Assembly (NCBI RefSeq): GCF_007741535.1
Contig: NZ_CP036525.1
Span: 992,001 to 1,056,000, forward strand
Direction: 5' to 3'
Source: Rubripirellula lacrimiformis
Lineage (GTDB): Bacteria; Planctomycetota; Planctomycetia; Pirellulales; Pirellulaceae
Length of the DNA stretch: 64,000 bases
In this document: positions 7,947-37,392 of the stretch, one piece after another
How positions within the stretch are numbered: position 1 is the first letter of the stretch
Layout: the number at the start of each line of letters is the position of its first letter
Notes under the pieces: generated by a model
Database searches by the model: none
What the model saw: only the letters and a program-made list of their open reading frames with translations
Told to the model about the DNA's origin: nothing
Made by a program: the position numbers and the translations under genes

Positions 7947-9854
7947 CTACGGTGCGGGTTCGAACTCAACCCATCCTGTGCGAACATTCTTGGCGGTCGC
8001 AAGCTGCCATTGACCGCTCGCGTCAAACACGTGCGATTCCTGATGCTGACCCTCAGAGTCCGTCCATTGGTACGTCACTTTGACCGGATCGGGGTGACCG
8101 GTGTTCTGAATCAAATGGGCCTCAGCGCGAAGATAGCGTTTGCCGCCGTCGTTGCGAAAGCGGATCTGGATCGGCTTGCCTGGTTCAGCGATTAGCGAGC
8201 AAGAGCCGTAGCACAAACTCTGAGACCAAAAATCGTCGGGCTCGTCACCCCGTCGCGGTATCGCCCAATCCTTCACGATCGGCTGCCAGTTCTTGCCGGC
8301 GTCAAGACTGTACTCGATCGAGTATCGAACATTCGGATTCGGCGGATTGCCCGAGGCCGTGTGAGCCGCTGCGTAAACGCGAGTGACAGGATCGCTGGGC
8401 GTGGCGGTGAGTGTCACCGTCTTTTCACCCAAGGCGCCGTCCGTGACAAAGCTGCGTGCCAGTTCCATTTCGGGCCCCATCGCGAACACGCTGCTGCCGC
8501 TCGCTTCATAGCTGATCGCGGTTCCGTCATCTTTGAGTCGTGGGAGAACTGCCACGTTGGCTTGGCAAACCGTGCGAATCTGCAGATTCGAATCGGCGAG
8601 TTGCTTTGCGCTGGTCGAGAATCGAAGCCAGTACTGCGAACGTCCTTTTACAAAGTCTGTCAAATCCAAGCCGTCGACGAATTTCTGCTTTGCCAGCCAT
8701 GTGCGGCCAGCGTCGACCGAGATCGATACTTCACAAGTCGCCCCGCCACGGAGCACGAGACCATTTCGGCAACCCGCTTCATAAATGCCCCAGCCGTCGT
8801 CGGTGGGTGGTGTTGCGGCAATCACGTACGGAGTTTGAAATGCGAAAACCACCTGTTCGTTGTTCTCTGCCACGACACCTTCGCGGTAATCCTCCGTGGC
8901 AAAGTCCGGTCGATAAATGTATTCAACATTTGCAAAGCGAACTTGCCCATTCCTGTGCGGCGTCCCGGACGTGGAGCCGTACATCCGCTCGGGCTGATTG
9001 ACCCAGGTCCTTGAACGCTCGGGCCCCGGAATACCATCGGTGTTGTAATTCTTTCCCCAAAAGACAAATGTTTTTCCATCTTCAAGGCCAGGTTCGAAGT
9101 AACGACGCATCCGCTCACCACGACGCAATCGCACCATCGGGGACGGTCCGGCGTAACCGGCCAAGTATTCCGCGACGGCGTATTCCCGATACGAGTTCCC
9201 GTCGTCCGGATGCAGTCCGCACACCAGCCAACCACGCTGTCTGTCGGGCTTGAAACGACGATCAATCCAACGGTCGACGTTCGGTTGCATCTCGCCGAGT
9301 CCTAGCAACCGGCGACCTGATTCATCAAAGATGACTGTCGACAAATCGTGATCCAATAGCGCCCAGCGGCCATCGGGCCCGTAGTTGCCACGCTGCAGAA
9401 ACACTTCAAAGGCATTGTGTCCCGCCGCGCCGACGCCGCGGCCTCGACCATGTCCCAACAAATGTTCGAACTCAGCGGTCCACTGCGAATGGGTGGTGCC
9501 GCACAACCCAAAACCGTAACCGAAAAGCCCATTCCAGTACTCGCGAAGACGTGAGTCCTTGGCAGACTCAAATCCGTCTCCCCACAGATCGCGACGCCCG
9601 GCTTCCCCGTGCCAGTAATGCGTATTTCGCCAAAGCCAAGAGGCAAGTGCCTTCTGCTCGTCGGTTTCAACCTCCAGCCCGGTGACACGCTGATAAGTTT
9701 CTGCCTGCGTCGCGAAGAGTCGGTCGAATGTGGAGATCGCCAGTTCACCTGGATACCAGGGATGGTCCGTGCGGATTTGGGGATCGCCCGTGTCAGCGAG
9801 AAGGGTTGCCGAAGGTACCAAGAACATCAGAATCGTTAACGATGTGCGGATCAT
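7947..9854 (-). CDS. Large secreted protein with transglutaminase-like core
   Basis: 635 residues with a signal peptide (about 1-20). Residues 60-175 look like a transglutaminase/protease-fold core. Candidate catalytic residues are Cys118 in FGLCGTTHSQW, His146 in GAAGHNAFEVFL and Asp168 or Asp170 in LLDHDLSTV, in the Cys-His-Asp order of the family. The remaining 450 residues are beta-rich, with phrases such as SISVDAGRTW and SIEYSLDAGKNWQP that resemble beta-sandwich or sialidase-like repeats. No membrane anchor is visible. The ATG at 9854 begins the signal peptide; a 31-codon extension lacks one. It is the first gene of a minus-strand trio. The biochemical role is inferred only from the triad and was not confirmed. 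Confidence 0.6.
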   Translation of the reverse strand: MIRTSLTILMFLVPSATLLADTGDPQIRTDHPWYPGELAISTFDRLFATQAETYQRVTGLEVETDEQKALASWLWRNTHYWHGEAGRRDLWGDGFESAKDSRLREYWNGLFGYGFGLCGTTHSQWTAEFEHLLGHGRGRGVGAAGHNAFEVFLQRGNYGPDGRWALLDHDLSTVIFDESGRRLLGLGEMQPNVDRWIDRRFKPDRQRGWLVCGLHPDDGNSYREYAVAEYLAGYAGPSPMVRLRRGERMRRYFEPGLEDGKTFVFWGKNYNTDGIPGPERSRTWVNQPERMYGSTSGTPHRNGQVRFANVEYIYRPDFATEDYREGVVAENNEQVVFAFQTPYVIAATPPTDDGWGIYEAGCRNGLVLRGGATCEVSISVDAGRTWLAKQKFVDGLDLTDFVKGRSQYWLRFSTSAKQLADSNLQIRTVCQANVAVLPRLKDDGTAISYEASGSSVFAMGPEMELARSFVTDGALGEKTVTLTATPSDPVTRVYAAAHTASGNPPNPNVRYSIEYSLDAGKNWQPIVKDWAIPRRGDEPDDFWSQSLCYGSCSLIAEPGKPIQIRFRNDGGKRYLRAEAHLIQNTGHPDPVKVTYQWTDSEGQHQESHVFDASGQWQLATAKNVRTGWVEFEPAP

Positions 9855-18639: not shown

Positions 18640-19091
18640 GTCGGTCACCAATCTCAGTCCGCGTGGATTTCAATTTGCATGTGGGCGGGCCAATCACCGC
18701 CGATCGCCGCGGCCCAATATACCGCATCCCCCAAGGGCCCGCGTGAAAGAGAAGATTCAGAAGTGTCGTTGGTAGGAACGGTGTCCGCCGGAGACGGACC
18801 TAAGAGATCAGAGAAACGCCGGCTGAAGCCGGTACTACGAACGGAGTACCACAGCAGAATCCGCCCAGGGATGCGAATTGAATGTTTGATGCGTTGGGAG
18901 GTTCGGTTTCGTGTAGGATTATGTCGAACGAATCACCCCTGGCGAAGTTGGGCGGACTGCAGGAATCGTGATCCTGCGTCTGATCGAATGTTTGCTGTTG
19001 ATTTTGAGAATCGTTTTGCAACAAGGTGATGATGCCGTTCAGAATCGAACTCTGGTAAAGGCGCTGGAAAATGAGATGTTGGACCAAGCAC
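18640..19091. other. Divergent intergenic region with GCCGGCTGAAGCCGG hairpin
   Basis: Lies between the divergent LRR gene and DUF1573-like gene, so both promoters should be here. At about 18819 it carries GCCGGCTGAAGCCGGTACTA, the same hairpin motif found near 10514, 14185 and 14709. No coding frame is supported. Confidence 0.45.
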
Positions 19092-22924: not shown

Positions 22925-24760
22925 TCATCTGGCGAGAATCCGGATTTCACGATAGCGCACCTGCGATTTCTTGGCGGATGCTTCCAGGCTCTGTTGGTAC
23001 TCGTCTGCTTTTTCCGGGGGTGGTGCTGATACGACGGGCAGCAAAACGACTTCGACCTTGCCGTCCTCCCAAAGGCCGAGGTTCTTCAATCGCGAAATCG
23101 TTGCGGTTGCGTCAAAGGTACGTGTCAACGGATGCGTGTGTGCGGTACCAGTCGCGCCTTCGGGAACCTTTTTCGGAACGCCGAACAAATCAAGCGTCCC
23201 AAGCCGGTATAGCGATTGCCGATCCACGTCATTGACGTCACTTGGCAAATTGAGATAGACCGCATACGTGAATGCGGGCGAATGATCGAACTCAATCCCG
23301 ACAACTTGAATCAGCAGTTGCTCTTTCTCGGCTGCCGCCGGCGCGACCGTATTGAAAGGCAAGCGCGCTCGCTCCGTCATCGGAACCTCAACGCGGTGTG
23401 GTTTCAGAGTCAACGGTGCTGAAAGATTGCTGCCCGCAGCAGCGTTTGCGTTGATTCCAGGTGGCTGCTTGGTGGAAGCGATCGATTGGTAACCTTGGGG
23501 CAAAGTCGAATCGGCGTCACCCGCGTCTGTATTCGCGTCAGGCGTGTGACCGTGTGTCATCGCTGGATGGACCGCCGCGACCATCATTGGCGATTCCGCT
23601 GTTGCTGGCATCGCCGGAGCGGGAGTCGTGTCATAGGAATAGCCAAGCTGTCTGCTGTACAGGTTTTCTCCAACTCGTTCGCTAACAGTTGTTCCGTCAG
23701 CCGCCGCGAACGGAAATTGCTGATCCAAAAATCCGAGACTGGTGGGGTTGCTGCGTCCACCACCAAGGTTAAGCCAATGGTCCCACAGACGGTCAATGTT
23801 GCAGTGGTGTAACCAGAAAATCGGATCATTGGCGGCGGTCGGAACGGACCCCATGTTTCCACCAATTTGAACATGAATCGCACCGTGTGGAGATCCTTCT
23901 AGCTGCGAACTAAAGCCAAACCTGCCTAGAAAGCTTGTCTGGGCCGTCGCATCGTTCAAATCGTCCCGGACAATGGACAGCGGCAACAATGCACCTTGGT
24001 TGATGAATCTCGAGTCATCGAACAGCGGATTCGTCGCGTCGGCCGGCTGGCGAAACGCGATCGGCAGCGCTCGGTCTTCGGTCCAGTCCCAGTAGGGCAA
24101 CGTGAGGTTCGGGTCGCCCGATGCTTCCGCCAATATTTGTTCAAAGTGAAACAGGTATAGCCGGTGCCAGGAGAAGAAATGGTCAGTTCCGTGTTGGCAT
24201 TGGTTGAATAGCGGGTTGCTTCCTGTAAACGTCCCATGAATGTTCGCTTGGAAAGCCCAGCTCGTTGGATCACTCGCCGGGCGCGACTTCATTGCATCGA
24301 TTCCACGCCGAAGTGTCTCGATTTCCGCCTCGTCCAAACTGCGAATGTTACGTCGTACGCGTCGCTCGACCCTGGCTTCTTTGACACCGTCGCCAACACC
24401 CAAAACCCGGACACCACGCAGCCACGGTGCTTCCTTTTCGAAGTTGATCCACGAGTCGGTAGCAGTGACGGTTGTGATTTGTGTCGTAGCGGGGCCGGCG
24501 GGAGGCACCGACGTCAGTTGGTAAATCTGATAGCCGTCCTGTGGCGGAGTCACGAACATCACTCGCTCCAATTGAACGTCAGTGAAGCCGCCACTTGGCA
24601 ACTCGCCCGACGCCGTGACGATGACCGCTGGCGGTTGAGTCGCGACGGTGTGGACACACAGGTGAGCAATCTTTGGAACAACTTGCCGACTTTGTGCGTT
24701 CGCACTTGAAGCAACGAATGCGAGAGTCAAAGCTGCAGTGGTCGGAATAAGAAAATTCAT
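22925..24760 (-). CDS. Secreted tyrosinase (type 3 copper phenol oxidase)
   Basis: 611 residues with signal peptide 1-22. Tyrosinases hydroxylate monophenols and oxidise diphenols to quinones at a dinuclear copper site. CuA ligands are likely His175 (ANIHGT), His190 (QCQHG) and His199 (SWHRLYLFHFE). CuB ligands are likely His292 and His296 (PHGAIH) and His318 or His319 (DPIFWLHHCNIDRLWDHW). Cys188-x-His190 matches the CxH arrangement that forms a thioether in some fungal and plant enzymes. About 150 residues precede the core, and about 250 follow it (linker, then beta-rich domain), which could act as a lid. It is the last gene of the seven-gene minus-strand block, 38 bases after the M6 protease. 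Confidence 0.92.
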   Translation of the reverse strand: MNFLIPTTAALTLAFVASSANAQSRQVVPKIAHLCVHTVATQPPAVIVTASGELPSGGFTDVQLERVMFVTPPQDGYQIYQLTSVPPAGPATTQITTVTATDSWINFEKEAPWLRGVRVLGVGDGVKEARVERRVRRNIRSLDEAEIETLRRGIDAMKSRPASDPTSWAFQANIHGTFTGSNPLFNQCQHGTDHFFSWHRLYLFHFEQILAEASGDPNLTLPYWDWTEDRALPIAFRQPADATNPLFDDSRFINQGALLPLSIVRDDLNDATAQTSFLGRFGFSSQLEGSPHGAIHVQIGGNMGSVPTAANDPIFWLHHCNIDRLWDHWLNLGGGRSNPTSLGFLDQQFPFAAADGTTVSERVGENLYSRQLGYSYDTTPAPAMPATAESPMMVAAVHPAMTHGHTPDANTDAGDADSTLPQGYQSIASTKQPPGINANAAAGSNLSAPLTLKPHRVEVPMTERARLPFNTVAPAAAEKEQLLIQVVGIEFDHSPAFTYAVYLNLPSDVNDVDRQSLYRLGTLDLFGVPKKVPEGATGTAHTHPLTRTFDATATISRLKNLGLWEDGKVEVVLLPVVSAPPPEKADEYQQSLEASAKKSQVRYREIRILAR

Positions 24761-24798
24761 GGATTCGCCCCGTTTGCCGGATTTGGTGGTGGAAATAT

Positions 24799-27393
24799 TT
24801 ACTCGACTTCAATCAGCTGCGACGTTTCTCCGTCGACGAGGACTTCAAGGGGCGCACGATTTTCGCCTACATCAACATTCACGCGGGAGACGATTCGTGC
24901 GTTCTCCGGATCCCCCTGAATCATGTGAATGCACTGACCCTGAATCGCGATGCGCTGTGGCGCTACACGCAGCTGGGTCGCCAACATCTCGGCTAGTTGT
25001 CCGTTGGTTAACTCTGTTTGTTTTCCGGTTACCTTGATTTTCTCAGGATCAATCAGGTTGGAATCGGCACCCACAAACTTGTCGTTGACGTAGTAAAGTG
25101 TCACGCCATTGCAATGCAGCGGGATTGCCTTGCCTTCCACATCGATCACCTGGGCAAAGTGGAACTCGCCGTCTTTCTTCGTTGCGGATTCAAAATCCAG
25201 CTGAACGGACTTGTTGGCGAACAGCGGTAAGAGTTCTTGGACCCGCTTTACCGAATCCTCCTTGATCGTCGAACCTCGCACCGGCAACTCAACGTCGGCA
25301 ATGCGTTGGACATGCTGCCCCGCGGTATCAAAACGCACGCGACTCTGGTCGGCTTCGCTCAACTGAAGCACATTTGCGATCGCTTGGTCGATTTTGGAGC
25401 TGTAGTTCTCCTGCTTCGAGACTGTCCTGGTTCGCTCTTTGGCGGTCTGGGTCAGCACCTGTTGCGCAACCTGGGGGGCGAGTTGATGCTTGATTTGCGA
25501 TGTTTCCAGCGAATGCAGCTCTTGTAACTCGCGTCTCGAAAATGTCTTCCTGGCTGGGTCTTGGATCGCCTTTGTCTTCAGTCGGCTCATCGTCTGCTGT
25601 TGTGCGGAGGGGAACTCTGAAGATGTTCGTCCTGTAATGTCCCGAGAATAGACTTGAACACTTGGCGGCATCATGGCAGTGGGAGATGTCACGTCTGAAA
25701 GCGGAGGAGCTGCTGCGATCGCGACCGGCATTGGTGATCGTGCAGGAGGCTGAAACCCGGGCGGGAAATCATCCATCTTGATGATCGCTGTCTTGGTGGC
25801 CAGATCGATTTGGGTGACTGATATCCCCGTCGGATTTCCATCTTTGAAGGATCGTGATCCTGCTTTGAACTCGGGGTCATCCTTGAAGTCGATGTTGTTG
25901 ATGAACAGATCAGCCGCATCAAAACGATTCTGTTTTCGTTCCAGGTGCAGTTTGCCGTCGCGTTGGATCAGGGAAACTAGCGAGTGCTTTGCTCTAAAAG
26001 CATTTCCAGCTGAATCGGGTAATGACGGCGAATCGTTTTGACCTTCGTCGTGTTCACTAAAAGGCCAATTGGCACTTGACTGTCCCACTGATTCATCCAC
26101 ATGCCATACTGCGATCCCGCCAGGGGAGAATTCTTGATCCCAGTTGATCCGTTCATCAAATTGATCCTCCCATTGACTGTCACGGAACTCAATCAAGAAA
26201 TACTCCTTGCCATCCGTTCCGGGGACATCAACATTGTAGATCAAGTTGCGCGCTTGCACGGGTTCCAAGTCGATCGACGTATTGCTTCCCACGTTCTCAA
26301 TCGTCGCCCAGCCCAGCAGCGCCTTGCACCATGCTGACATGTGCACCGGCATCGCTGCATTGCTTCCATTGGCTCCGTAAGAACCGCCGGCCATCAGGCA
26401 GTAGTTCCCCACACCTTCCGAGTCGGGGCCGCGATCGTCAGCCGGCGTGCGATCGTAGAGGTCGGGGAGACCCAGCGCGTGCCCATACTCGTGGCAAAAA
26501 ACGCCAATCGGAATGATCCGCTTATTCGATACCGTGGAATCGCAGCTCAAGCCGGGCTGGACCGTATAGTCTTCGATGCGAATCTTTGAGTTGGTGCCCA
26601 AGACGGGCTCGCCCGCATCGTTCAAACGATCGTCGTCCGTTTCAAATGGGCCCGTGTTCGCGCCAAAATCGCTGTACCTAAATGAATGGGACCACAGGTT
26701 GTTATTGCCACACTCCCCACCGGTCTCACTATGCACGATGAAAATCGTGTCGACGACTCCATCGTCATCACCCGAGTTTGGAAGTCCGTCTGGGCCATCA
26801 TTGTCAAACTGCCCAAAATCAATGTCGTCATCAGCATTCTCAAACGCGAAACGCAGCAACTGGGCCAGTCGTTCATTCAGCCCGTTGTTGCCAGACTCGT
26901 AGAATGTGTCATCTTCCGGCAGAGTGTACCAACCCAGTGTCTGCCCAGTCGGGATGAACTGGCCGTTGGAAATGTCCCGGTAGTACTGTGTGAAGGTTGG
27001 GCGTATCGGGTCAGGCAGCGTGCCGCTCGGACCAAATAGCATGGACTGGTACTCCGTCGCTTCAAAATCGTGCTGACGATTCCTGAACTCCACGCAGATC
27101 ACGGGAACAGAACGCGTACCGGCTAGACGCAGATTCACGCCAGGCGCAAACGCCATTCCTGGCAGTCCGATTTGACGTCTTAGTCGAAACATCTCCACCG
27201 TTCGGTGGTATCCAGCCGAAGGTACATACTCGTCACCAGGCACCGCGCCCGCAGGAGTCGCCGCGGCGACGGCGATGTTCGGTGCCGCAGGCTGGACGAC
27301 GCGCTGCTCGGGAGGTACGGCAACTGCAAGGGTTGGAATGCTTGCCAACAACGATACGACAATAGGCCATCGTCGAAAACTTTCACGGTTCAT
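24799..27393 (-). CDS. Secreted M6-family metalloprotease
   Basis: 864 residues with a signal peptide (about 1-26). The zinc site is HEYGHALGLPD: His301, Glu302, His305 and the downstream Asp311. It is preceded by the M6-type segments PVICVEFRNRQHDF, FTQYYRDISNGQF and DTIFIVHSETGGE. M6 peptidases (immune inhibitor A type) are secreted zinc proteases. Residues after about 570 form a long C-terminal region with a Gln/Lys-rich helical stretch and a final 200 residues resembling a propeptide or PepSY-like fold. The Met at 27393 puts the signal peptide first. Encoded between the cytochrome fusion and the tyrosinase, it is a candidate for proteolytic maturation of the latter; that is inference. Confidence 0.9.
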   Translation of the reverse strand: MNRESFRRWPIVVSLLASIPTLAVAVPPEQRVVQPAAPNIAVAAATPAGAVPGDEYVPSAGYHRTVEMFRLRRQIGLPGMAFAPGVNLRLAGTRSVPVICVEFRNRQHDFEATEYQSMLFGPSGTLPDPIRPTFTQYYRDISNGQFIPTGQTLGWYTLPEDDTFYESGNNGLNERLAQLLRFAFENADDDIDFGQFDNDGPDGLPNSGDDDGVVDTIFIVHSETGGECGNNNLWSHSFRYSDFGANTGPFETDDDRLNDAGEPVLGTNSKIRIEDYTVQPGLSCDSTVSNKRIIPIGVFCHEYGHALGLPDLYDRTPADDRGPDSEGVGNYCLMAGGSYGANGSNAAMPVHMSAWCKALLGWATIENVGSNTSIDLEPVQARNLIYNVDVPGTDGKEYFLIEFRDSQWEDQFDERINWDQEFSPGGIAVWHVDESVGQSSANWPFSEHDEGQNDSPSLPDSAGNAFRAKHSLVSLIQRDGKLHLERKQNRFDAADLFINNIDFKDDPEFKAGSRSFKDGNPTGISVTQIDLATKTAIIKMDDFPPGFQPPARSPMPVAIAAAPPLSDVTSPTAMMPPSVQVYSRDITGRTSSEFPSAQQQTMSRLKTKAIQDPARKTFSRRELQELHSLETSQIKHQLAPQVAQQVLTQTAKERTRTVSKQENYSSKIDQAIANVLQLSEADQSRVRFDTAGQHVQRIADVELPVRGSTIKEDSVKRVQELLPLFANKSVQLDFESATKKDGEFHFAQVIDVEGKAIPLHCNGVTLYYVNDKFVGADSNLIDPEKIKVTGKQTELTNGQLAEMLATQLRVAPQRIAIQGQCIHMIQGDPENARIVSRVNVDVGENRAPLEVLVDGETSQLIEVE

Positions 27394-27484
27394 TGTGTGT
27401 GCCCTGAAAAAAGCAAGGTGTTTGTGATTGCAAACATTCATAGGTTCGTTTCGTCTTGCACGCAGCAGAGCGAGACCGTTCGTT

Positions 27485-29290
27485 TCATTGCGACCGGGCT
27501 GTTGATTGACTGAGTTCTTGGGGCAGCTCGATTCGAGTTTGCTTGGACGCGTAGCGTTGATCTGGGCCCAGTGATAGCCGCGGAAAGATGCCGGGGTTCA
27601 AAGCGTTCTCGGTTTCATGTTCGACCCGTTCGATCAGATAGTCGCGAGAGAAGCGGTCTACCATGTGGCGCAACGAGTGATCGATGACTGTCAACGCAAA
27701 GTAGGTTCCAAATTGTAAGTTTTGGTCGGTAATCGGGATTCGGCGAGAACGCATCCAAGATCGGATTCGAAACGCGCGCGGGTGATGTATCAATGGATCT
27801 CGATAAGGTGTTACCAAGATCCTCCTTGGCCAATGCGTGTTAGGACCACCGCCGCTCGATTTGGCCAGCAGCGTGCCGGACAAATAGACCGCATCGTGTG
27901 TCTTTCGAATGGATGATTTCAGAAACCTGAAGTCAGCGTCGCTGAGCCAAAGCAGACATGGTTCGGAGCAGGAAATCGTCTCCGTTCGATTCGTGGTGGA
28001 TTGACGATTGATGACGTGGTCGGCGACTGGGAAGTGGTGCGTTTTTAGTTTTTGCGAAGTGTATCGGAGGGCGACTTCGCCTGGCGTGTCGGCGATCGCG
28101 AACTGGTGAATCAAGGTGGACTCGTCACCTCGTTTTCTTTTCTCTATCAGGTCATCCAACACCGCGTCCGATTCGTCGTACAAACCGCGATTGAAATACA
28201 GGGTCGATCCACCGTTTGCGTTGATCGTGGGGAGTGACGTATTGGGGAACAGACAGGGAATCTGACGATGATCGCAAAATCTCTGAATGGGACTCCAGGG
28301 CTGCGTTGAAACACCACCGATCAGGGCGAAAACTGGCGCCGTTCGATAGTACGCCGACAGTTGGCCAGAAAAACTGTACGGCTCCCCTTCTAGTCTCCAG
28401 TCGTGTAGCTGCCAAGTTCGGTAAGCATGCAGGAAGTCGTCTTTGTAGTTCGGTGAATTTCCAACGTGGTTTCGGTAGCGTGTGACTTCGCGATTGTGGT
28501 CTGTCACGTACGCATCCATCACACTCCACATGGCCCGCCTGCTCTGATCGGAGACTTCGGGAGTAGTCACGACGGCAAAGTGAATCGTGTTTTCGTCGAT
28601 GCCGGGATCGTCATGGCGTGACAACGATCGCAGGTAGGCGATCAAGTTGGCCATCGTAGAATCGTTCAACGCGTATCGCGGCATCAAGTGGTCCAGAACG
28701 CGTCCGGATGAGTCGATGCCGTTACGAATGGCGTGTGCGAGTGTCTCGTCTGTGTAAGCGGGACGCGACGTGGTGTTGCGCGGGGCGGCGCTTTCAACAG
28801 CGGTCTGTGGTTCTTGAAAGAGGGCACGAAATTGCCATGATCGATTCAGTTGGCGCGGCTGGAAGAGTGCCGGTTGAGTGATCGCGGGGGAAAGTTTGCC
28901 TGGTTCGTCGACACCGTATCCGCTGCGTCGATGACATTTGGCGCAACTGACTAGCTGCCCCGACATCTGCAAATCATCGATGACGGTAGCAACGACTTTT
29001 GTACCGTCCGTCTGTTGGCCTGTCCGGTAGATCATTTTGCCATCGTGGACGTTGGCCCGTTGCGTCTGGGCAGCAGCGTTGACGCTGGTCAGACAAACGA
29101 AGGCGACCAAGCTCGCCGCCGTCGTCAAAGGCATCGTCTCTGGAAGCATCTTTTTTGGGGGGGAGAGGACGAGGTTACGAGCTCTGCGGAGTCGATGAAA
29201 AACATCGGACACGTCGACTCGTCCATGACGGCCAATCCAAACGCTAGGTCGAGATAGAAGGCTAGGGGGATTGCGCCGTTCGCACATCAT
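27485..29290 (-). CDS. Cytochrome c / periplasmic binding protein fusion
   Basis: 601 residues. After a hydrophobic export segment (LTTAASLVAFVCLTSVNAA, about residues 55-75) comes a cytochrome c domain with CAKCH (Cys116, Cys119, His120) and a plausible axial Met in DHLMPRYAL. From about residue 210 the protein reads HFAVVTTPEVSDQSRRAMW and continues as a periplasmic-binding-protein-like (leucine-binding type) domain to the end. Start: ATG at 29290 overlaps the stop of the upstream Sco gene as ATGA, which supports translational coupling. A later Met (29149) would give a more normal signal peptide but has no Shine-Dalgarno. The role is inferred as an electron carrier or sensor for the neighbouring oxidases. 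Confidence 0.8.
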   Translation of the reverse strand: MMCERRNPPSLLSRPSVWIGRHGRVDVSDVFHRLRRARNLVLSPPKKMLPETMPLTTAASLVAFVCLTSVNAAAQTQRANVHDGKMIYRTGQQTDGTKVVATVIDDLQMSGQLVSCAKCHRRSGYGVDEPGKLSPAITQPALFQPRQLNRSWQFRALFQEPQTAVESAAPRNTTSRPAYTDETLAHAIRNGIDSSGRVLDHLMPRYALNDSTMANLIAYLRSLSRHDDPGIDENTIHFAVVTTPEVSDQSRRAMWSVMDAYVTDHNREVTRYRNHVGNSPNYKDDFLHAYRTWQLHDWRLEGEPYSFSGQLSAYYRTAPVFALIGGVSTQPWSPIQRFCDHRQIPCLFPNTSLPTINANGGSTLYFNRGLYDESDAVLDDLIEKRKRGDESTLIHQFAIADTPGEVALRYTSQKLKTHHFPVADHVINRQSTTNRTETISCSEPCLLWLSDADFRFLKSSIRKTHDAVYLSGTLLAKSSGGGPNTHWPRRILVTPYRDPLIHHPRAFRIRSWMRSRRIPITDQNLQFGTYFALTVIDHSLRHMVDRFSRDYLIERVEHETENALNPGIFPRLSLGPDQRYASKQTRIELPQELSQSTARSQ

Positions 29291-29934
29291 GGTTTCTCCG
29301 TCCTGGCGAGCACGGATTGGACGTCGGCCAATAGATCCTTTGTGCTGACCAGTCCGGTAATGCGAAGCCATTGATCACTGTTGGCTGCGCGTACGAACGT
29401 CAGCGGTTCGTGACGCGATTTGTTGGGGACATATGCGGTGAAAGCTTTTTGGACCAGCGAAATGTCGTGCGGATCACCGGTCAAAAAACACCAGCCAGCG
29501 TCGGCTCCCAACGTCTTGGAAAATTCAGTCAAGCGCGCCGGTGTGTCGTATTCGGGATCAATCGAAATCGTGCAGAACCGAACCTGTTTGGCTTGATCGC
29601 CGAGGCTTTTTTGTACGCTGGCCATTGTGGCGCTGGCGACAGGGCAAATGGTTGAACAGGACGTGAACGCAAACTGCATGACGACGGGGTGTGCTCTGGA
29701 AAGTGCTGTTGCAAGCGAGATCGAATTTCCATCAGCATCGGTCAGTCGCAGTTTGGGCAGCGAATAGGTTGCCGTCGTGCGACTGACCGCGGCCTGGGAT
29801 GTCGTGCAGCAACAGGTTGCTTCCCCGGTGACCTGGCATACCGATTCGTTCGGTAGGGTAGCGTCTTGTAGTGCCCAAGCTGGTGGTGAAGACATCAACA
29901 GCAGGCATGTCAATTGCAGGGGCAGTGGTTTCAT
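29287..29934 (-). CDS. Sco1/SenC-family copper chaperone, canonical
   Basis: 215 residues with a signal peptide (about 1-22). Sco proteins are thioredoxin-fold copper chaperones or thiol-disulfide proteins. The copper motif is intact: Cys93-x3-Cys97-Pro in FTSCSTICPV. The distal ligand is His175 in KSRHEPLTF, and the family segment TISIDPEYDTP is also present. A Cys-rich stretch (CQVTGEATCCC, about 33-43) just after the signal is unusual and could be a second metal or disulfide site. The stop overlaps the start of the cytochrome fusion by four bases, and the gene starts 24 bases after the giant CHRD protein, so it is firmly in the operon. Confidence 0.92.
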   Translation of the reverse strand: MKPLPLQLTCLLLMSSPPAWALQDATLPNESVCQVTGEATCCCTTSQAAVSRTTATYSLPKLRLTDADGNSISLATALSRAHPVVMQFAFTSCSTICPVASATMASVQKSLGDQAKQVRFCTISIDPEYDTPARLTEFSKTLGADAGWCFLTGDPHDISLVQKAFTAYVPNKSRHEPLTFVRAANSDQWLRITGLVSTKDLLADVQSVLARTEKP

Positions 29935-29958
29935 CCGAGAACCTCCAAGCGGTTGGGG

Positions 29959-32900
29959 TTAGTGAACCGAATAGATCGCGACGTCATGGTGCAGTGGGTC
30001 GAACTGATAGAACCGCAGTCTCGTCGACGGTTCGAAGTTGAATCGAAACCAAGCTTTGTGAACGCCCAACCGAATCGCATCGGGCTGTGTTCTGTCGTAC
30101 TTCGGTTCGCCTGTTGTGGACAATTGAGTGGCGCTACTGCCATCTTCCACGATGTCTACGAGCGCCCCGTCTTTGAATTCCTGCTTGACCGCTGGCGGAA
30201 CACCGATGGTGCCGCCAACCGCGTTGAATCGCCAATGGAATCGCCCAAAAGTAAACAAGCTTCCTTGGCCGCCGACGGCCATTGATGACTTGAACTGGTT
30301 TTCCCATCCGCGCAGGCCGCCGAAATCAGGATTGGCGTACCCGTGGATGAAGTAATCGCCATTCCAAACCGTCACTCGGAACTTTCCGGGGATGGCTGGT
30401 TTCTCTCCGTCGGCCGGTTTGTCTCGTGAACGCCACTTTTCGAACCTCAATCCGCCATCGCTCAGCTCGCCGTACAACGTATTGTTGACGTACAGCAGAG
30501 TCATGTCTGACTCGGTGTCGGCTTCCAATCCGCTGGGCAAATGATTGCGATCTTTCCAATCCAAGTACGCGTGGCGAGCGTCGATAATGGAGTAAAAACA
30601 GTCCTCGAATTTGGCGTTTTTCTTTTTGAGAACTTCTTCGATTTGATGAAAGGCTCGCCACATACGTTTCGCGGGAGAAAAACCACTCAATTTGACGATT
30701 GGGCCATCGTGCGGATCATAGTCATCGTCATCGAGACTTGATTTTGGTGGATGCGCAAACGGGGCATGCGACAGGCGAATGAATTGCATCCGCAGTGTCG
30801 TGCGGACTCGTTGCAGATGTTCTTGCGGGGTTTCGGTATGGGGGCGGCCATCTTCCAGCGTGTAGATGCGGCGCGGTTGGTTCAGCATCTCTTCGTCTAG
30901 GTACCTTTCGACCCAATGGTCGACGTGGCGTTCGGGATGCGCCGGATTGAACTCGCGATCGATGCCGTCAAACACCATGCGTTCGTGATCATCGATGCGA
31001 AGTCGAAAGAACCTTGGTGGCGGCGCGGGGATCTTGGGTGGCTGATCGTTTCGGGCTTCCACAAAACTTTTGTCTAGCTTCAGGTTTTGGTAGTGCTGAA
31101 CGAATTCGTCACTACGCGGAGGAACCCGTTTATGCACATTCTCGACCGCCTGGGCTCGCGGAGCATGTTTTCGCCAGCCCCAGGTGTAATGCACGTTTTG
31201 ATACTGTGTCGGAGCCATCTTGATTTTCAGTTCTGTCCTTGTTCCTTCGGCGAGCGGCAAGAACGTGCTGTCCATCGCGACATGCGGCGGACCGAAACGC
31301 ATCGAGCGATTCTCGCCGTCAATGTTCATTTTCCCCCAGGCCACCTCTGGCCTGGTGCCGTAGTTCAAGTTGGCATAAGGAACTGCCGGACGCACTTGAG
31401 TGACTTGTTCCGGATAGTCAAAGTAGATGGCCGTGGGCGAAAAATCGTCTTCACCACGATTGAGGATGTCGACTTTGAACGTCACGGTCCAGGGAACGTC
31501 ACGCGGCATCGGTGGCGGCGATTCGGTCAAGCCTGCCACGAAGGATTCTTTCACCGATCGGGTGCCCTTTTTGTCGCCGCGTTGTTCGCGATAGGCGTCC
31601 CAATGTTGACGAGTCAATTGAGGGTCCAGTGGACTGTACCAGCGGACTTCCACGGTTCGTGAATCACCTTGTTTCGTTTTGACTCGCAAGGGAATGTCGT
31701 CCCATCCGAAATCGTAGAACATCGTGTCTGATTCAATGCGTCCGTCGTACCAGATTTGATGCACGTCGACGTTGCCCGAGACGATTTTTCCATGTTCGTC
31801 GTAAACGGGTAGTACTCGGGACGATCGCCGATGACCGCTGTGATGCAACAGCGCAAATCCCTTGTAGACGCGATTGCTGGGGATTCGTGATGGACGCAAG
31901 TCAATTTTTTTATGGTCGTCGGTTCCGTGCCGTACGGCGCCGGCGTTGCCCTCCAGAATATCAATTGCCCATTCGGCGCGATGCAAAAGTTCTAGTCGGT
32001 GTTTGGCAATCGTTTCGTGGTGCGAGTCCCTGTCGACCGACGCGAACAGGTCCTGCATCGTAGGCCCGTCCAGGTCCTGCCACAAACTACGCACGGATTG
32101 CCCGGTCAATGTTTCGAAAATACTGTCCAGGATGAATCGCAGATCATCGGTGGGCGATGAGTGCGTAGGGAGTCGTGTGACATGTGGTTCGCCATCGTGT
32201 AGGTGGTAAGGATGCCGTGGCGTCGATGGCAGCGTGTTGACCATCTCGACTCCCCTCCGGTCACGCATGTTTTGGTGAACGGTGGGCAGCATGTTCGTGC
32301 CGGGCGGATTTTTGAAAGGATCCACGTCGGGAAAGATACCGCGTGGCGTATCGATGTAGGTGAAAGCTGCTTTGCCCCAGCCACCGGTTCCCAGTCGCGG
32401 CAACGTTTCGTACATCTTGCGTGGTTCGAACGATTTTGGATCACGCTTTCGATTGGCGCGGGACTCTATTGCCGCCGATTCAGCGGTAGGCGATGCCGCT
32501 GCTCTGGCTGCGGAAAGGGCTGCGGAAAGGGCTGCGGCATCGGCGGGATTGTCTTGGTCCGGTGGAATGTAATAGTCGCGAGGGTGCTTTTGCCGAATCA
32601 TCTTCGGCGTGTTCTGGGGCGGCGTTTCAGGAACCGTGGCGGCTCGCGGCATGGCAGCCTTTGTCGTTTCCCCAACCGCAGACCTTGGGTTCCCGGTATT
32701 CGTAGCGATATCAACTCCAAATCGGTAGTGCAGCGAACGGGCTGGCCGTGGTTGGACGCCGGGATGATCGACAAAACTTTTGCGATCCGGATGAGCGATT
32801 ACCGAGTTGTCCTGATCAAGGGTGGTCGGTCGAAAGCGACGCAGATACCGCTTCTGAGCGTCCTTGATTGGGTCGTTGTCACGAATGTCTTGATAGCCCG

Positions 32901-33636
32901 CGGTGTTGATTGGATAGGGATCATCTGCGAAGACGTCGAGGATCGAGGGCGATACGGGTAAAACGGGGTACTGATTCGCGTCCTGATAGGCTTGGAAAAG
33001 CGGGGCGGGGAACGATTTGACCTCGCGCGCATCGGGCAAAGAATCTTGCGCGGCTTGGTCGAGCTCGCTTTCATCGGCAGGCGCGAGGCCGCGAAGTGCT
33101 TCGGCCAGGATCTGTCCGCGCAGTTCGCCTGTCTTGTTGTCCGTTGTATGGATCAAAACATACAGTTGCTCGGAAAGCAGTAAGTCATGAAGCGTATCGT
33201 CGCCGCTGAAATCGAAATTGCCCGAAAACCGGTAGCGATCGTTTTCCTTTTCGACCGTGAAGTTGCGAACGGGTGGCCCATCGGTTCCCATGCGCCCCTT
33301 GTGAATATGCGCCGCACTTTGAGGGTTGCCTTCGTCGTCCACTGGTCCCAATTTGTGCAGTTCTCGATCTTCGATCGAGAACACTCCGCATACGATTAGC
33401 TTTTTCGTTTCCGCGTCATAGCTGCAACCGAAGGAACCGAATGATTTGTGGGTGATCGCCCGATCCACCTGCTGCGTTTCGATCAACAAGAACTGCGGCG
33501 GCGAGAGTGAGCAGATATCGTCGGAGTACGCGGCGGTCGCGGTCACCAATGACAGCGGCAAAATTCCTGATGCCACAATCAATAGGATCATTTTCCCAGC
33601 ACAGCTGGGCCGTCCGGTTTTTGTTTGGTTCGTCAT
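29959..33636 (-). CDS. Giant exported CHRD-domain protein, function unknown
   Basis: 1225 residues. A signal peptide or anchor lies at about 14-38. Residues about 65-176 form a CHRD domain: SAAHIHKGRMGTDGPPV and LIHTTDNKTGELRGQI are its typical phrases. CHRD domains, first seen in chordin, also occur in bacterial exported proteins. From 180 to 400 the sequence is low-complexity, with Ala-rich runs and PRHPYHLHDGEPHV-type His-rich patches. From 400 to the end there is a large, mostly beta-rich region with many aromatic and His residues (HYTWGWRKHAP, VHQIWYDGR, HPERHVDHWVERYLDEEM), which I do not recognise. It sits centrally in the copper-oxidase operon between the two Sco genes, so it may be a copper-binding scaffold, cross-linking substrate or partner; this is inference. 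Confidence 0.8.
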   Translation of the reverse strand: MTNQTKTGRPSCAGKMILLIVASGILPLSLVTATAAYSDDICSLSPPQFLLIETQQVDRAITHKSFGSFGCSYDAETKKLIVCGVFSIEDRELHKLGPVDDEGNPQSAAHIHKGRMGTDGPPVRNFTVEKENDRYRFSGNFDFSGDDTLHDLLLSEQLYVLIHTTDNKTGELRGQILAEALRGLAPADESELDQAAQDSLPDAREVKSFPAPLFQAYQDANQYPVLPVSPSILDVFADDPYPINTAGYQDIRDNDPIKDAQKRYLRRFRPTTLDQDNSVIAHPDRKSFVDHPGVQPRPARSLHYRFGVDIATNTGNPRSAVGETTKAAMPRAATVPETPPQNTPKMIRQKHPRDYYIPPDQDNPADAAALSAALSAARAAASPTAESAAIESRANRKRDPKSFEPRKMYETLPRLGTGGWGKAAFTYIDTPRGIFPDVDPFKNPPGTNMLPTVHQNMRDRRGVEMVNTLPSTPRHPYHLHDGEPHVTRLPTHSSPTDDLRFILDSIFETLTGQSVRSLWQDLDGPTMQDLFASVDRDSHHETIAKHRLELLHRAEWAIDILEGNAGAVRHGTDDHKKIDLRPSRIPSNRVYKGFALLHHSGHRRSSRVLPVYDEHGKIVSGNVDVHQIWYDGRIESDTMFYDFGWDDIPLRVKTKQGDSRTVEVRWYSPLDPQLTRQHWDAYREQRGDKKGTRSVKESFVAGLTESPPPMPRDVPWTVTFKVDILNRGEDDFSPTAIYFDYPEQVTQVRPAVPYANLNYGTRPEVAWGKMNIDGENRSMRFGPPHVAMDSTFLPLAEGTRTELKIKMAPTQYQNVHYTWGWRKHAPRAQAVENVHKRVPPRSDEFVQHYQNLKLDKSFVEARNDQPPKIPAPPPRFFRLRIDDHERMVFDGIDREFNPAHPERHVDHWVERYLDEEMLNQPRRIYTLEDGRPHTETPQEHLQRVRTTLRMQFIRLSHAPFAHPPKSSLDDDDYDPHDGPIVKLSGFSPAKRMWRAFHQIEEVLKKKNAKFEDCFYSIIDARHAYLDWKDRNHLPSGLEADTESDMTLLYVNNTLYGELSDGGLRFEKWRSRDKPADGEKPAIPGKFRVTVWNGDYFIHGYANPDFGGLRGWENQFKSSMAVGGQGSLFTFGRFHWRFNAVGGTIGVPPAVKQEFKDGALVDIVEDGSSATQLSTTGEPKYDRTQPDAIRLGVHKAWFRFNFEPSTRLRFYQFDPLHHDVAIYSVH

Positions 33637-33691
33637 CGCTAACTCTGCAGACTGATGTGAAAGGTATTGGCTGGAACCCCTGGCTGACTAT

Positions 33692-34327
33692 CTATCTGTA
33701 CGAACGGGTCGCCGTATCAAATCGCGGACCAGCGCGGCGGATTCCCTTGGGACGCTTCGCTTCGCGGTTTGGCGTGATCCACGCCAAACGATCAATGATC
33801 TGCGCGGCATCGGTCTTGGTTGGAACGGAGCCCCATATTCCTGCCGTGTCGTTTCCGTAACGCAGCAGTCCGGCGGAGCAATCCGTTGGCTGCAATTCCG
33901 AATGGTGCTGCTGATGCGTTTCGTCGCCATGGAAAAAAAACACCTGCTGCAACAGGCTCAGACTGTCGACGTCGCCGGTTACAAACGTCCATCCCTCTTT
34001 GGCGTGATGCCGCTTGGAAAATTCTGCGAGAGCAGCAACATTATCGTTCTCTGGATCCGACGTGATCGAGATCATGAAAACATCATCCCCAAGTCGGTCG
34101 CCCAATCGGCGCTGCACATCGATCAAATTTCTCGTCACCGGATAGTTCGGGTGATAGGCAAGGCTGACAAACTGCACGATGACAGTACGGTCTTTGACCA
34201 GATCGTCGTAAAACAATTTACGCCGGTTGTCGTGCGTCACGATGGGCACATTGGGAACAAAACGCCGGCGCGACGCGACTTGACCAGGCATCCACGCGAT
34301 CGCTTGGCTATCGAATTTACTGGCCAT
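33692..34327 (-). CDS. Sco-like thioredoxin-fold protein lacking CxxxC
   Basis: 211 residues. The fold signatures of the Sco family are present: VIVQFVSLAYHPNYPVTRN, MISITSDPENDNVAALAEFS and GWTFVTGD. Where canonical members have Cys-x3-Cys-Pro, this one has Tyr58-His-Pro-Asn-Tyr62-Pro, so both copper or redox cysteines are replaced. A His-rich loop (FFHGDETHQQHHSE, about 131-144) lies near the usual distal His and could bind metal instead. No signal peptide or membrane segment is visible at the N terminus, unlike the Sco at 29287. Gaps to its neighbours are 53 and 55 bases. Start at 34327; six extra codons are possible. Confidence 0.8.
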   Translation of the reverse strand: MASKFDSQAIAWMPGQVASRRRFVPNVPIVTHDNRRKLFYDDLVKDRTVIVQFVSLAYHPNYPVTRNLIDVQRRLGDRLGDDVFMISITSDPENDNVAALAEFSKRHHAKEGWTFVTGDVDSLSLLQQVFFFHGDETHQQHHSELQPTDCSAGLLRYGNDTAGIWGSVPTKTDAAQIIDRLAWITPNREAKRPKGIRRAGPRFDTATRSYR

Positions 34328-34380
34328 GATTGTCTTCCCACGCACAGGGATGGATAAAAGGAGGATGCATTCAAAAGGTG

Positions 34381-37300
34381 TTATCGATCTAACGCCTGAT
34401 CGCTGTCATTTTCATGAGAACTAGCGTGTTCTGGCATCGGTTGCACATGCGGGACTTCATGGGGAAGTTCGACTGAATAGAATCGATCCGCACGTTTGGG
34501 CGTATCGAACCCGTGTCCAGGCGGAACGATGTCCCAGCGGATCATCATCGCATGGTCTTCGTGAACGACGTTGTGGCAGTGCATCACGTGTTTGCCCAAG
34601 AAATCCTTCCACCGCATGAACATGGTGACTTCCCAGTCAGGCAGCAGGATCGCGACATCGCGACGTGGTCCACCCATGAATCGGCCTTCGCCTTTGATCG
34701 AGTCGCCGTTGTTGCGAAGATCCAGCTCTGCGATCCCCAGTATCCGCAACAGCACGACCATCAATCGAAACTCTTTGGCCGATTGAAAACGGATCTGTTC
34801 GATTCCAAATTCATTTTCCTCGTCTACAAAATGCTTGACTTGACCACGAAGGTGATCTGTCCCGAATTTGCTTAGCATGATCGCGGCAATCACGACGCGC
34901 ACTTGCTGCATCGTTTTGGCGATGTCTTCGGGTGAATAAGATCTCAGTAGAACGGTCTCGATTCGCTGGATTTCAACAACGGCCTGCGTTTCCTGTTGAT
35001 ACAGATTGCCTTTCCATTGTTCAGCGTTGGTGATGAGTCGCTGCAAAAGTTGTTCAAGCGTTTGCGGTTGATCGGAGGCCGCCCGCGTCTTTCGTTTCAG
35101 AAACTCGCGTGCCGCCGGGGCTTGCTCGTACAAGTTCTGCATCTTGTTTTCGCTTTCCGATGATTTCTTAATCGCTTCTAGGCTGTCGCGAATTTGATCG
35201 CGAAATTGCCCGTCCAGCTGAATGAATGATCGCGGCTTTTTAAGAAAGGGGATCGAATTTTGAACCTCCGATTCTTGCACGGTGTATTGATACTGCGGCA
35301 CGCCATTGATTTCTAAGACAATGAATTCGGTGAAGTGACTGTGGATGGGGTGGCTCCATGAATTTCCGTTATTGCGCATCGTCCAAATCTCGGCCGTGTC
35401 TTGCTCGATCCCGGCGTCGATACGGTTGGGGTCGTAGGTCAGTCCGTTGACCGTCCAAAGCCCGCCGTCAAAATCAAATTCCCACAATCGTTCCCGGCGC
35501 ACTTCGGTCAGATCGACGGGGGGGAAACTGCGAAACGCTAGCGGCAACGTGCTTTTATCCGGCGCCGGAAGCGTTTTGCCGACCTCGAACTTCACCATCC
35601 CCTGTTCTTGAAAAAACGGCTCCACGCCGTCGGCGGGTTGACAGGAGATGTCCGTACTGACAAACGTGTCGCGATGGTATTCACGCCCCGAAGGCCCGCG
35701 CCCATTGATTTGATCCAAGACGTTGACCATGTACAGATTCTGGCCCGCGAATTCCGAGAAATCGATCACGACGTCGCATCGCTGAGCCACACCGAGGTAC
35801 AAGCTTCGCGCCAGCAAGGCGTTGGGTTGGAAGTTTCCGTCGCCTGCGATCACGATGAAGGGGATTTCACCGATCAGATCGCCGTTTGCATCTCTATCCG
35901 GTTTGCCGTCGCTGACTTTGGCGGGCACTGATTCGGTGTGGATTGTTAGCTCGTAAAACCGAGACGGTCCGCCATTGAGAATCCGAAACCGGTACTTTCG
36001 CGGCTCCACTTTCATGACCGGTTGAATGATGCGGTTGACGGTCAGCCGATCGCCGATGATGCCATCCGTATTGAATCCATCAAACACCAACTGAGGTGAC
36101 GGATCATAGGGCGGCGTCTCTTCTTTTTCGCCATCGGGGTGTGCGAACAAAAGATCGTGCAGGATCATCGGCACGTCATAATCACCTGCCGGCAGTCCCC
36201 ACCCTTCGCCTTCGACGCCGACGTCCTGCTTGATGGATTCGTCTAGGTCGGCTCCAGCGTCGTCCGTTGTTTCATCAAACAGCGTATAGAACCCATCTAG
36301 TCCCGCGTACACATTTGCAGCGGTGAAATCCATTCGGTGGTCGTGATACCACAGTGTGCTTAGTTTCTCGTTCGGATCGTACCCCGATGGAAAGTTGCCA
36401 TAGTGATGGTCCCAGTATTCGCCTGTGTTGATCCAGTCATTCGGGTTTCCATCGCTTTCCGAGGCGGTGTGTGCGTTGTGCAGATGAGTCGTCGTCGATG
36501 GGAGCGCAAATTTGATTCGGCGACGGTTTTTATAGCTGGCGGCATCGTTCAAGATTTCGGGTAGCGAGTTGACACGACGAACCATCACGGGCTGTCCATA
36601 GCGTGCCTGGAAAGTCGGCCCCGGCGAACTTGCTTGCAAGCGAACTTTCATCGCTGGCAAACCAACGCTTGCGTCGCGTTTCCACTGCTGGTTCTTTCTC
36701 AGCGGTTCAAATTGACAGTCTTGGTAGCTGGCGTAGTTCCCGTTGTCTTTGGGGTGATCGGCAGCCTTGCAGAAAGACGCGAATCCCCAGTTGTAGGAAT
36801 CCTTGCCGTAGCATTCATCGAACCGCCAAGCGAATTCGACTTCCCACATCGCATAGAAGTACTGCGTCTTGAAATCAAAGAACCGTTGGTGGGCGAACGG
36901 ATCGGGAAGATCGCCCAGATCGATGTCTATATTCGCAAGTGAGGTTGCCGTTTCGGTGAAACGTTTCCAGAACCCGGCCAGCCATGCCAGATTCAGTTCG
37001 GATGTCGATTCAAGTTGTTGCCGACTTAATCGCAACGTGACGCGATCGATGTCCGCCTTGGTCAGCAAGATTCGAGCGTTTGTGTTCGCGTTGTGCTGAG
37101 AGATCTCAAACCGCAAGGGATACTCCTCGGGCACAAAAGCGAACAGCGGCTCGGGAACGCAAGGAGTGAAGAAAGGAGTCGTGAATGGTCTAACTTTGGG
37201 GCTTGGTGAAACCAGGATGGACGGTGGCGAACCCTGCGGTGCTGAAAGGAAATTCAGTCGCCCTGCCATCTCGTCGCGAACTTCCTGATGAAGGTCTTCG

Positions 37301-37392
37301 CCTTGCACCAGAGCAGTCGTCCCGCACAAACCCGCTGTCACGCCTTGCTTTAAAAATTCTCGGCGACCGTTCGACATGCGTCCGTTGGACAT
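34381..37392 (-). CDS. Tat-exported multicopper oxidase (CotA/bilirubin oxidase-like)
   Basis: 1003 residues. Twin-arginine signal NGRREFLKQG (Arg10-Arg11) at the N terminus. Copper motifs: HLHNAH (303-308), WYHDH (350-352), HPIHSH (681-686) and HCHNVVHEDHAMM (938-949), which supply the T1, T2 and T3 ligands; the axial T1 ligand is probably Met949. These are laccase-like enzymes that oxidise phenols or metals with reduction of O2 to water. Usual members are about 500 residues. Here an extra block of about 150 residues precedes the first motif (100-250), and about 180 mostly helical residues (725-900) sit between the last two. The start at 37392 has AGGAG eight bases upstream. First gene of the seven-gene block. 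Confidence 0.92.
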   Translation of the reverse strand: MSNGRMSNGRREFLKQGVTAGLCGTTALVQGEDLHQEVRDEMAGRLNFLSAPQGSPPSILVSPSPKVRPFTTPFFTPCVPEPLFAFVPEEYPLRFEISQHNANTNARILLTKADIDRVTLRLSRQQLESTSELNLAWLAGFWKRFTETATSLANIDIDLGDLPDPFAHQRFFDFKTQYFYAMWEVEFAWRFDECYGKDSYNWGFASFCKAADHPKDNGNYASYQDCQFEPLRKNQQWKRDASVGLPAMKVRLQASSPGPTFQARYGQPVMVRRVNSLPEILNDAASYKNRRRIKFALPSTTTHLHNAHTASESDGNPNDWINTGEYWDHHYGNFPSGYDPNEKLSTLWYHDHRMDFTAANVYAGLDGFYTLFDETTDDAGADLDESIKQDVGVEGEGWGLPAGDYDVPMILHDLLFAHPDGEKEETPPYDPSPQLVFDGFNTDGIIGDRLTVNRIIQPVMKVEPRKYRFRILNGGPSRFYELTIHTESVPAKVSDGKPDRDANGDLIGEIPFIVIAGDGNFQPNALLARSLYLGVAQRCDVVIDFSEFAGQNLYMVNVLDQINGRGPSGREYHRDTFVSTDISCQPADGVEPFFQEQGMVKFEVGKTLPAPDKSTLPLAFRSFPPVDLTEVRRERLWEFDFDGGLWTVNGLTYDPNRIDAGIEQDTAEIWTMRNNGNSWSHPIHSHFTEFIVLEINGVPQYQYTVQESEVQNSIPFLKKPRSFIQLDGQFRDQIRDSLEAIKKSSESENKMQNLYEQAPAAREFLKRKTRAASDQPQTLEQLLQRLITNAEQWKGNLYQQETQAVVEIQRIETVLLRSYSPEDIAKTMQQVRVVIAAIMLSKFGTDHLRGQVKHFVDEENEFGIEQIRFQSAKEFRLMVVLLRILGIAELDLRNNGDSIKGEGRFMGGPRRDVAILLPDWEVTMFMRWKDFLGKHVMHCHNVVHEDHAMMIRWDIVPPGHGFDTPKRADRFYSVELPHEVPHVQPMPEHASSHENDSDQALDR

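Follow-up and report, generated by a model that had tools for sequence, protein, structure and literature searches.

The locus considered here raises the question of what is accomplished by a closely spaced run of seven genes that brings together two families of copper enzymes, two Sco-fold proteins, a cytochrome c fusion, a protease and a protein of 1225 amino acids (aa). It lies on the minus strand between positions 22925 and 37392 of a stretch of 64,000 nucleotides (nt) of Rubripirellula lacrimiformis, hereafter the window, which corresponds to positions 992001-1056000 of a single-contig genome of 8.54 Mb. An initial annotation had read the run as an exported oxidative system, for instance for phenols, of a composition not yet described. 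All seven open reading frames (ORFs) were confirmed, and matches to Pfam were consistent with the product names that they had been given. The seven genes were found to be two things joined, namely a five-gene cassette that is also present in other phyla (genes 1-5) and a tail encoding an M6 protease and a tyrosinase (genes 6 and 7) that was seen only in this window:

34381-37392, minus strand: gene 1, multicopper oxidase (MCO) of the bilirubin-oxidase/CotA type with a leader of the twin-arginine translocation (Tat) type, 1003 aa
33692-34345, minus strand: gene 2, protein of the Sco fold that lacks the CxxxC copper site, 217 aa
29959-33636, minus strand: gene 3, giant protein with a CHRD domain at residues 55-176, a linker and a conserved core at residues ~425-1225, 1225 aa
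29287-29934, minus strand: gene 4, canonical Sco with CSTICP, 215 aa
27485-29290, minus strand: gene 5, fusion of cytochrome c and a periplasmic-binding protein (MofC type), 601 aa
24799-27441, minus strand: gene 6 (add-on), M6 metalloprotease, 880 aa
22925-24760, minus strand: gene 7 (add-on), tyrosinase with a C-terminal domain of the latent-enzyme type, 611 aa

Genes 1-5 reappear in other phyla with their order and common strand preserved, and are therefore a real conserved cassette, more than a chance arrangement. A scan of genome contigs with an alignment of the fusion returned 108 relatives, the best 80 of which were analysed as loci (loci and genomes are denoted below by L and G numbers). 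A gene for the giant core was present in ten of these 80, and the order MCO, Sco-like, giant, Sco, fusion was complete and on one strand in seven loci, namely in Sedimenticola (L080), Acidobacteriota (L082, L093, L099, L100), Betaproteobacteria (L084) and Lysobacterales (L086). In L100 a space of 557 nt with an ORF of 157 aa separates giant and Sco. The contigs of L081, L083 and L085 start inside the cassette and cut its 5' end, with the 3' part kept in a consistent order. By eye, the ORFs flanking the cassettes were found to vary, except that L081 and L082 have common downstream genes. Conservation of gene order, by which the initial annotation could be judged, thus holds for the core, where neighbouring genes do not vary freely. 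Of all 80 loci, 44 had a Sco match that ended at most 500 nt before the fusion and 66 had one anywhere in the locus; evidence of an MCO (by tblastn, the Paraburkholderia giant or an HCH motif) was obtained for 58, some of which could be repeat matches because the Paraburkholderia giant carries cadherin-type repeats. The cassette also suggests that the fusion plus a Sco is a partner that recurs with more than one type of exported copper oxidase.

The tail was not conserved in this manner. Gene 6 matched the M6 family (Pfam, 4.7e-29) and TIGR03296 (5.9e-45), with the motif HEYGHALGLPD at residue 317. Gene 7 matched Tyrosinase (2.7e-38), DUF7868 (1.5e-6) and, weakly, PPO1_KFDV, and its relatives include hemocyanin, tyrosinase and polyphenol oxidase. 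Its tyrosinase domain holds six candidate copper histidines (175, 190, 199, 292, 296 and 319, among other histidines), with roles assigned by pattern. Judged from its C-terminal domain the tyrosinase is probably latent, and the M6 protease may mature it by cleavage, as the position of a protease next to a latent tyrosinase would suggest. Neither gene had a match in any of the 80 fusion-bearing loci (0/80), and the tyrosinase matches found in three of the ten cassette-bearing genomes all lay outside the cassette loci that were fetched. Within the family of the window, its own genome included, a tyrosinase was matched in 9 of 199 genomes (four over an N-terminal piece only) and the M6 protease in 5 of 199. 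No M6 gene was found beside the closest tyrosinase (G127, from another genus, 60% identical) in the ~360 nt upstream that are left before the contig end. The placement of the two genes in one conserved unit with the others is thus not supported, and a pure pigment operon, with tyrosinase conserved beside the MCO, was rejected since the add-ons are not conserved.

Residues ~10-136 of the tyrosinase also matched small separate frames of 147-284 aa in G044, G157, G020 and G053 (36-47% identity; one frame has an internal stop), and this N-terminal part may be an independent domain. On a Paracoccus plasmid (L038:8390-26479), an MnxG-type gene, a Sco, a cytochrome and methylamine-dehydrogenase-like genes were observed with a tyrosinase-trypsin pair nearby, in which the tyrosinase has the same type of C-terminal domain and adjoins the trypsin-like protease.

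The tail bears directly on the possibility that the locus is a phenol-oxidation system, in which the exported MCO and tyrosinase would produce radicals or quinones for detoxification, cross-linking or a melanin-like pigment, with copper supplied by Sco and the tyrosinase matured by the M6 protease. Such a system would agree with the candidate copper histidines and latent-type domain of the tyrosinase, with the relatedness of the MCO to the aminophenol oxidase PhsA and to CotA, and with the Paracoccus plasmid, where a tyrosinase adjoins a protease near an MnxG-type cluster. We nevertheless consider it rather unlikely, as tyrosinase and protease are missing from the related loci and the MofC-type fusion and the conserved giant are left unexplained. 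Of the function first proposed, a copper-dependent oxidative set, exported by its leaders, was retained; the phenol or pigment part fits the added tyrosinase best.

Gene 1 matched Cu-oxidase_2 (Pfam, 1.1e-11), and its closest solved relatives among PDB sequences were bilirubin oxidase (~1e-33) and CotA (2e-31). It was 41-56% identical to eight relatives, and four copper-ligand motifs were invariant in all nine MCOs (H303xH305, H350xH352, H681xxH684xH686 and H938CHxxxH with M949 in the axial position). By these motifs and by its similarity to solved members, the enzyme belongs to the bilirubin-oxidase/CotA type. A leader reading NGRREFLKQG was recognized by eye, as was a twin-arginine (RR) leader in seven of the eight relatives; the eighth (L080) starts 26 nt from a contig end and is probably cut. 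The relatives largely lack an insert of ~170 aa that the window enzyme has near residues 732-905. The best NCBIfam match was PhsA, at 95 bits well below the cut-off of 950.

Two further identities for gene 1 were rejected. The MnxG structure 9bxa was not among all 56 PDB matches at E<=0.0003, and no similarity was detectable to the MnxG homologue of the planctomycete G365 (E 0.37). CueO was found among the weaker NCBIfam and PDB matches, at 66.4 bits against a model cut-off of 525. Copper tolerance of the CueO kind, in which the MCO would oxidise periplasmic Cu(I) and the Sco proteins would handle copper, can point to these weak matches and to the presence of two Sco-fold proteins, but is very unlikely given the missed cut-off, a fusion and a giant that it leaves unexplained, and one Sco lacking the usual copper ligands.

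MCO matches were obtained in 28 of 294 genomes of the phylum (E<=1e-20) and in 8 of 22 of the genus, the window's own included in both counts; the others in the genus were paralogues of 35-40% identity. In a tree of 22 MCOs, midpoint-rooted for drawing, the window enzyme was grouped first with the MCOs of four Acidobacteriota cassettes (support 100/99), next with those of Pseudomonadota and after that with the MCO of the planctomycete G581, in which MCO, Sco-like gene and giant stand in order. Other planctomycete MCOs fell outside the cassette group, including L048 and L079, whose branches are long. This phylogenetic pattern, along with patchy occurrence, suggests that the cassette has spread horizontally.

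The two Sco-fold proteins were found to differ in their metal site. Both matched SCO1-SenC of Pfam (gene 2, 6.5e-5; gene 4, 3.1e-22). The CxxxC ligands of a Sco copper chaperone are present in gene 4, as CSTICP, with CxxxCP in 10/10 of its relatives; they are absent from gene 2 and from 8/8 of its relatives that cover the site. Several relatives of gene 2 have RR-type leaders, none of which was seen by eye in the window copy. The delivery of copper by Sco proteins, as first proposed, is therefore upheld for gene 4 and doubtful for gene 2, which in the absence of these cysteines could hardly donate copper in the manner usual for a Sco.

For the giant, Pfam matched CHRD (3.7e-14), covering residues 55-176 of 1225 only and present in 1 of 11 aligned giants (alignment A3), that of the window; GLEYA was matched at 0.0074 in 1 of the 11. 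The core is 34-46% identical to ten relatives, with invariant histidines at H598, H824, H1216, H1217 and the C-terminal H1225, and it had no PDB sequence match at E<=1. As a bait the giant returned no relative in a first scan of genome contigs, viral contigs or plasmids. In the family it matched 8 of 199 genomes, its own included, the others over CHRD alone or a weak C-terminal piece (G118), and its CHRD-free part matched 12 of 392 genomes of the phylum at E<=0.01, its own included, of which only G581 was convincing besides the window. The fusion proved to be the better bait. AlphaFold models of the core were built from the A3 giants minus L039 and L086 (runs of X) plus the partial L083, and reached a mean predicted local distance difference test score of 51 (window version) and 64 (L093 version). 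A Foldseek search with the L093 model gave nothing at E<=0.001; the top ranks were flagellins (E 0.1-0.3), with multicopper oxidases from E 0.4, which are not evidence, and no fold is claimed. The core may tentatively be regarded as a new exported family with invariant histidines.

In gene 5, the cytochrome c match (Pfam, 0.0025) is below the curated cut-off, and the heme motif CAKCH at residue 116 is intact. For the binding-protein half of the window copy Pfam gave nothing at E<=0.01, and this half was assigned through its relatives, three of which, Betaproteobacteria and G262 copies included, are 31-33% identical along the alignment. In the phylum, 13 of 384 genomes have the fusion at E<=1e-5, the window's own included.

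A cytochrome c fused to a periplasmic-binding domain beside an MCO, together with the Sco of gene 4, is the composition of MofC/Sco-type clusters. In Pseudomonas putida GB-1, Table 4 of PMC11409713 gives an mnxG operon of mnxG, a beta-propeller gene, two SCO1/SenC genes, a substrate-binding protein with a cytochrome c domain and SurA, and the same source has mcoA followed by SCO1/SenC. The window shares with this operon an MCO in first place, two Sco-family genes and then the fusion. It differs in having a giant and no beta-propeller, a Sco without cysteines, and M6 and tyrosinase genes instead of SurA, and its MCO is of the short bilirubin-oxidase/CotA type; the likeness lies in the partners only, because that MCO resembles neither 9bxa nor the G365 homologue of MnxG. 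The G365 protein itself matched 9bxa at 3e-112, as the Paracoccus plasmid protein did at 7e-53, and its operon (L075:7946-19946) consists of the MnxG homologue, a beta-propeller, two Sco genes, the fusion and a SurA/DsbA-type protein. The same order was found by tblastn in G527, of the same other planctomycete family (L076:9282-19959: MCO, propeller-type protein, two Sco genes and a fusion whose frame is split in two ORFs).

The mofABC genes of Leptothrix and the ompB cluster of Geobacter also have a MofC-type fusion beside the MCO, some with a Sco. MofC-like proteins are described in PMC5566968 as a cytochrome c with a periplasmic-binding domain, beside OmpB/MofA, and in the Geobacter ompB cluster the MofC homologue adjoins a SCO1/SenC gene. 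Two of our loci go back to organisms of that study, L134 being Ferriphaselus R-1 and L147 (Ferrigenium KS03) probably the Gallionellaceae of culture KS. The MCO upstream of the fusion is 1770 aa with fn3 matches in L134 and 1450 aa with fn3 below the Pfam cut-off in L147; in L148 a Sco and the fusion are followed by an MCO of 1530 aa. Among solved structures the L134 enzyme is closest to CotA (3e-33), like the window group, whereas the MCOs of this kind that were examined are longer (1450-1770 aa) with extra repeats, and no giant-core match was found in L134, L147 or L148. A copper metallochaperone accompanies the mof-type operon of Rubrivivax in PMC8218464, where the published tree sets MoxA apart from other Mn-oxidising MCOs.

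A third comparison is with a Sideroxydans cluster of cupredoxin, Sco and cytochrome genes (Slit_1812-1818), reported to reach a higher abundance on magnetite than on Fe(II)-citrate and to have similar clusters in Paraburkholderia (PMC12016527). Paraburkholderia copies were among the fusion loci, and cupredoxin oxidases, Sco and cytochrome are common to both, while these clusters differ in having two MCOs and a large cupredoxin protein, with LolA-like proteins in Paraburkholderia, and no giant-core match. A two-MCO, Sco and fusion cluster as in Paraburkholderia was observed in the planctomycete G262 (L069:31-11919), close to genes for a beta-helix/HYR protein and for chemotaxis receptors. The statement that no such system had been described consequently stands, as far as was searched, for the full set of seven, and falls for its nucleus, as an MCO with one or two Sco proteins and the fusion is described for mnxG and mofA/ompB clusters. 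Among the open-licence papers searched, none on the five-gene cassette was recognized.

These clusters also allow for an extracellular electron-transfer module working with solid minerals, by electron uptake or by reduction of Fe(III)/Mn(IV) like Geobacter OmpB. The fusion has relatives in Geobacter-type genomes, Fe(III) oxide reduction requires OmpB (PMC5566968) and the Sideroxydans cluster is raised on magnetite (PMC12016527). Set against this, no ORF of 90 aa or more among those kept from the ten cassette loci showed more than one CxxCH, and the copper set of the MCO is complete for O2 reduction; we judge such a module improbable.

By its gene content and order, the cassette is a variant of the MofC/Sco-type metal-redox copper-oxidase clusters. 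We consider it about evenly balanced whether genes 1-5 encode an exported system for metal redox chemistry, of the kind known from mof, mnx and omp clusters, with an MCO of the bilirubin-oxidase/CotA type whose substrate would most likely be Mn(II) or Fe(II). In such a cassette the MCO would be exported by Tat and pass substrate electrons from the type-1 copper to the trinuclear centre and on to O2. The cysteine-bearing Sco would load or protect its copper, and the cysteine-less Sco-fold protein may be a structural subunit or regulator of the oxidase. The MofC-type fusion could carry electrons between oxidase and periplasm or sense a ligand through its binding domain, and the giant may be exported as a partner of the oxidase, either anchoring it or binding metal via the conserved histidines of the giant core. 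In this planctomycete, the protease and the probably latent tyrosinase are joined to the 3' end. In favour of a metal substrate, CotA of Bacillus pumilus is able to oxidise Mn(II) (PMC3618234). In 15 of 29 metagenome-assembled genomes of Planctomycetota, PMC10732223 records a manganese oxidase gene, with cotA among the markers, and MCOs are proposed there as Mn oxidases.

Several points weigh against a metal-oxidising function. The tyrosinase is in the same tight run, which is what a phenol pathway would show, and the best NCBIfam match, however far below its cut-off, is an aminophenol oxidase by name. The MCO is without detectable similarity to the MnxG homologue of G365, which leaves the link to MnxG to the partner genes. 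CotA of Bacillus pumilus oxidises laccase substrates as well as Mn(II) (PMC3618234), so that the sequence by itself does not decide between a phenol and a metal substrate, and the requirement of OmpB for Fe(III) oxide reduction (PMC5566968) means that roles within the group differ. Furthermore, G581 has no Sco or fusion match downstream within the 20 kb examined, and no MCO was detected in 22 of the 80 fusion loci, three of which are 5'-cut cassettes and others of which are short contigs.

With regard to transcription, the intergenic gaps from the tyrosinase end were 38, 43, -4, 24, 55 and 35 nt, using the longest ORF for each gene except for the fusion (start 29290) and the MCO (start 37392), which were kept as first annotated. 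Four of the gaps originally given (55, 24, -4 and 38) were reproduced; the remaining two, 91 and 53, became 43 and 35, since later start codons had been chosen for the M6 and Sco-like genes. Promoter-like sites were rarer than in shuffled sequence (5 vs 8.1) and terminator-like sites about one standard deviation above it (24 vs 19.4, standard deviation 4.7). As neither scan gave a usable signal, the proposal that the seven genes form one transcript rests on spacing and kept order. Further out in the window, a Tn5-family transposase (51813-53366) and a leucine-rich-repeat protein (16339-18651) were observed.

Other planctomycetes have a related MCO with an adjacent Sco and no giant or fusion match, and their Sco proteins carry either CxxxC or a predicted CxxxU (U, selenocysteine), neither of which is found in gene 2. 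In six such MCO-adjacent Sco genes from five genomes, an in-frame TGA was observed at the second Cys codon of CxxxC, with the Sco frame continuing (L041:11288-11290; L042, minus strand, 8968-8970; L044, minus strand, 9247-9249; L045, minus strand, 8814-8816; L046:4629-4631; L047:2246-2248); CxxxC stands in its place in L043, L049, L079, L179 and L180. The sequence GAACCT-(5 nt)-AGGTTC starts 14 nt past the TGA in 6/6, resembling the hairpin of a selenocysteine insertion sequence. Its stem is identical in all six, with no covariation, and as the stretch also encodes conserved Sco residues, structure is not separable from sequence conservation. SelB over its curated cut-off and tRNA-Sec over its gathering score were present in 5/5 genomes with a TGA-containing Sco (in G347 the tRNA-Sec scored only 49 bits), and also in G340 and G201, whose Sco has CxxxC. 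Among 14 control genomes SelB was over the cut-off in two and tRNA-Sec in five; in the window's genome neither exceeded its threshold. The four of the six that were scanned against NCBIfam matched no selenoprotein family, and no Sco selenoprotein was found in the literature searched, including passages of the reviews PMC13188914 and PMC9312934 and of PMC12013277. The six MCO-linked Sco proteins are probably selenocysteine-containing.

Taken jointly, the observations allow a more specific reading, which we put forward tentatively as less than probable. The cassette would encode a class of extracellular Mn(II)/Fe(II) oxidase complex that is apparently not yet described and has spread horizontally in Acidobacteriota, Pseudomonadota and Planctomycetota, and in which the ligand-less Sco-fold protein has become a structural oxidase subunit and the giant core a surface- or mineral-binding scaffold, joined in this window to a protease-activated tyrosinase in one transcript. 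Beyond a handful of model strains, which enzymes oxidise Mn(II) and Fe(II) is largely an open matter. The giant core, the cysteine-less Sco and the MofC-type fusion together provide a compact marker for a candidate metal-oxidising system in these three phyla, and the five proteins can be expressed together. If true, the joint reading would link the oxidation of metals and of phenols in one transcript.

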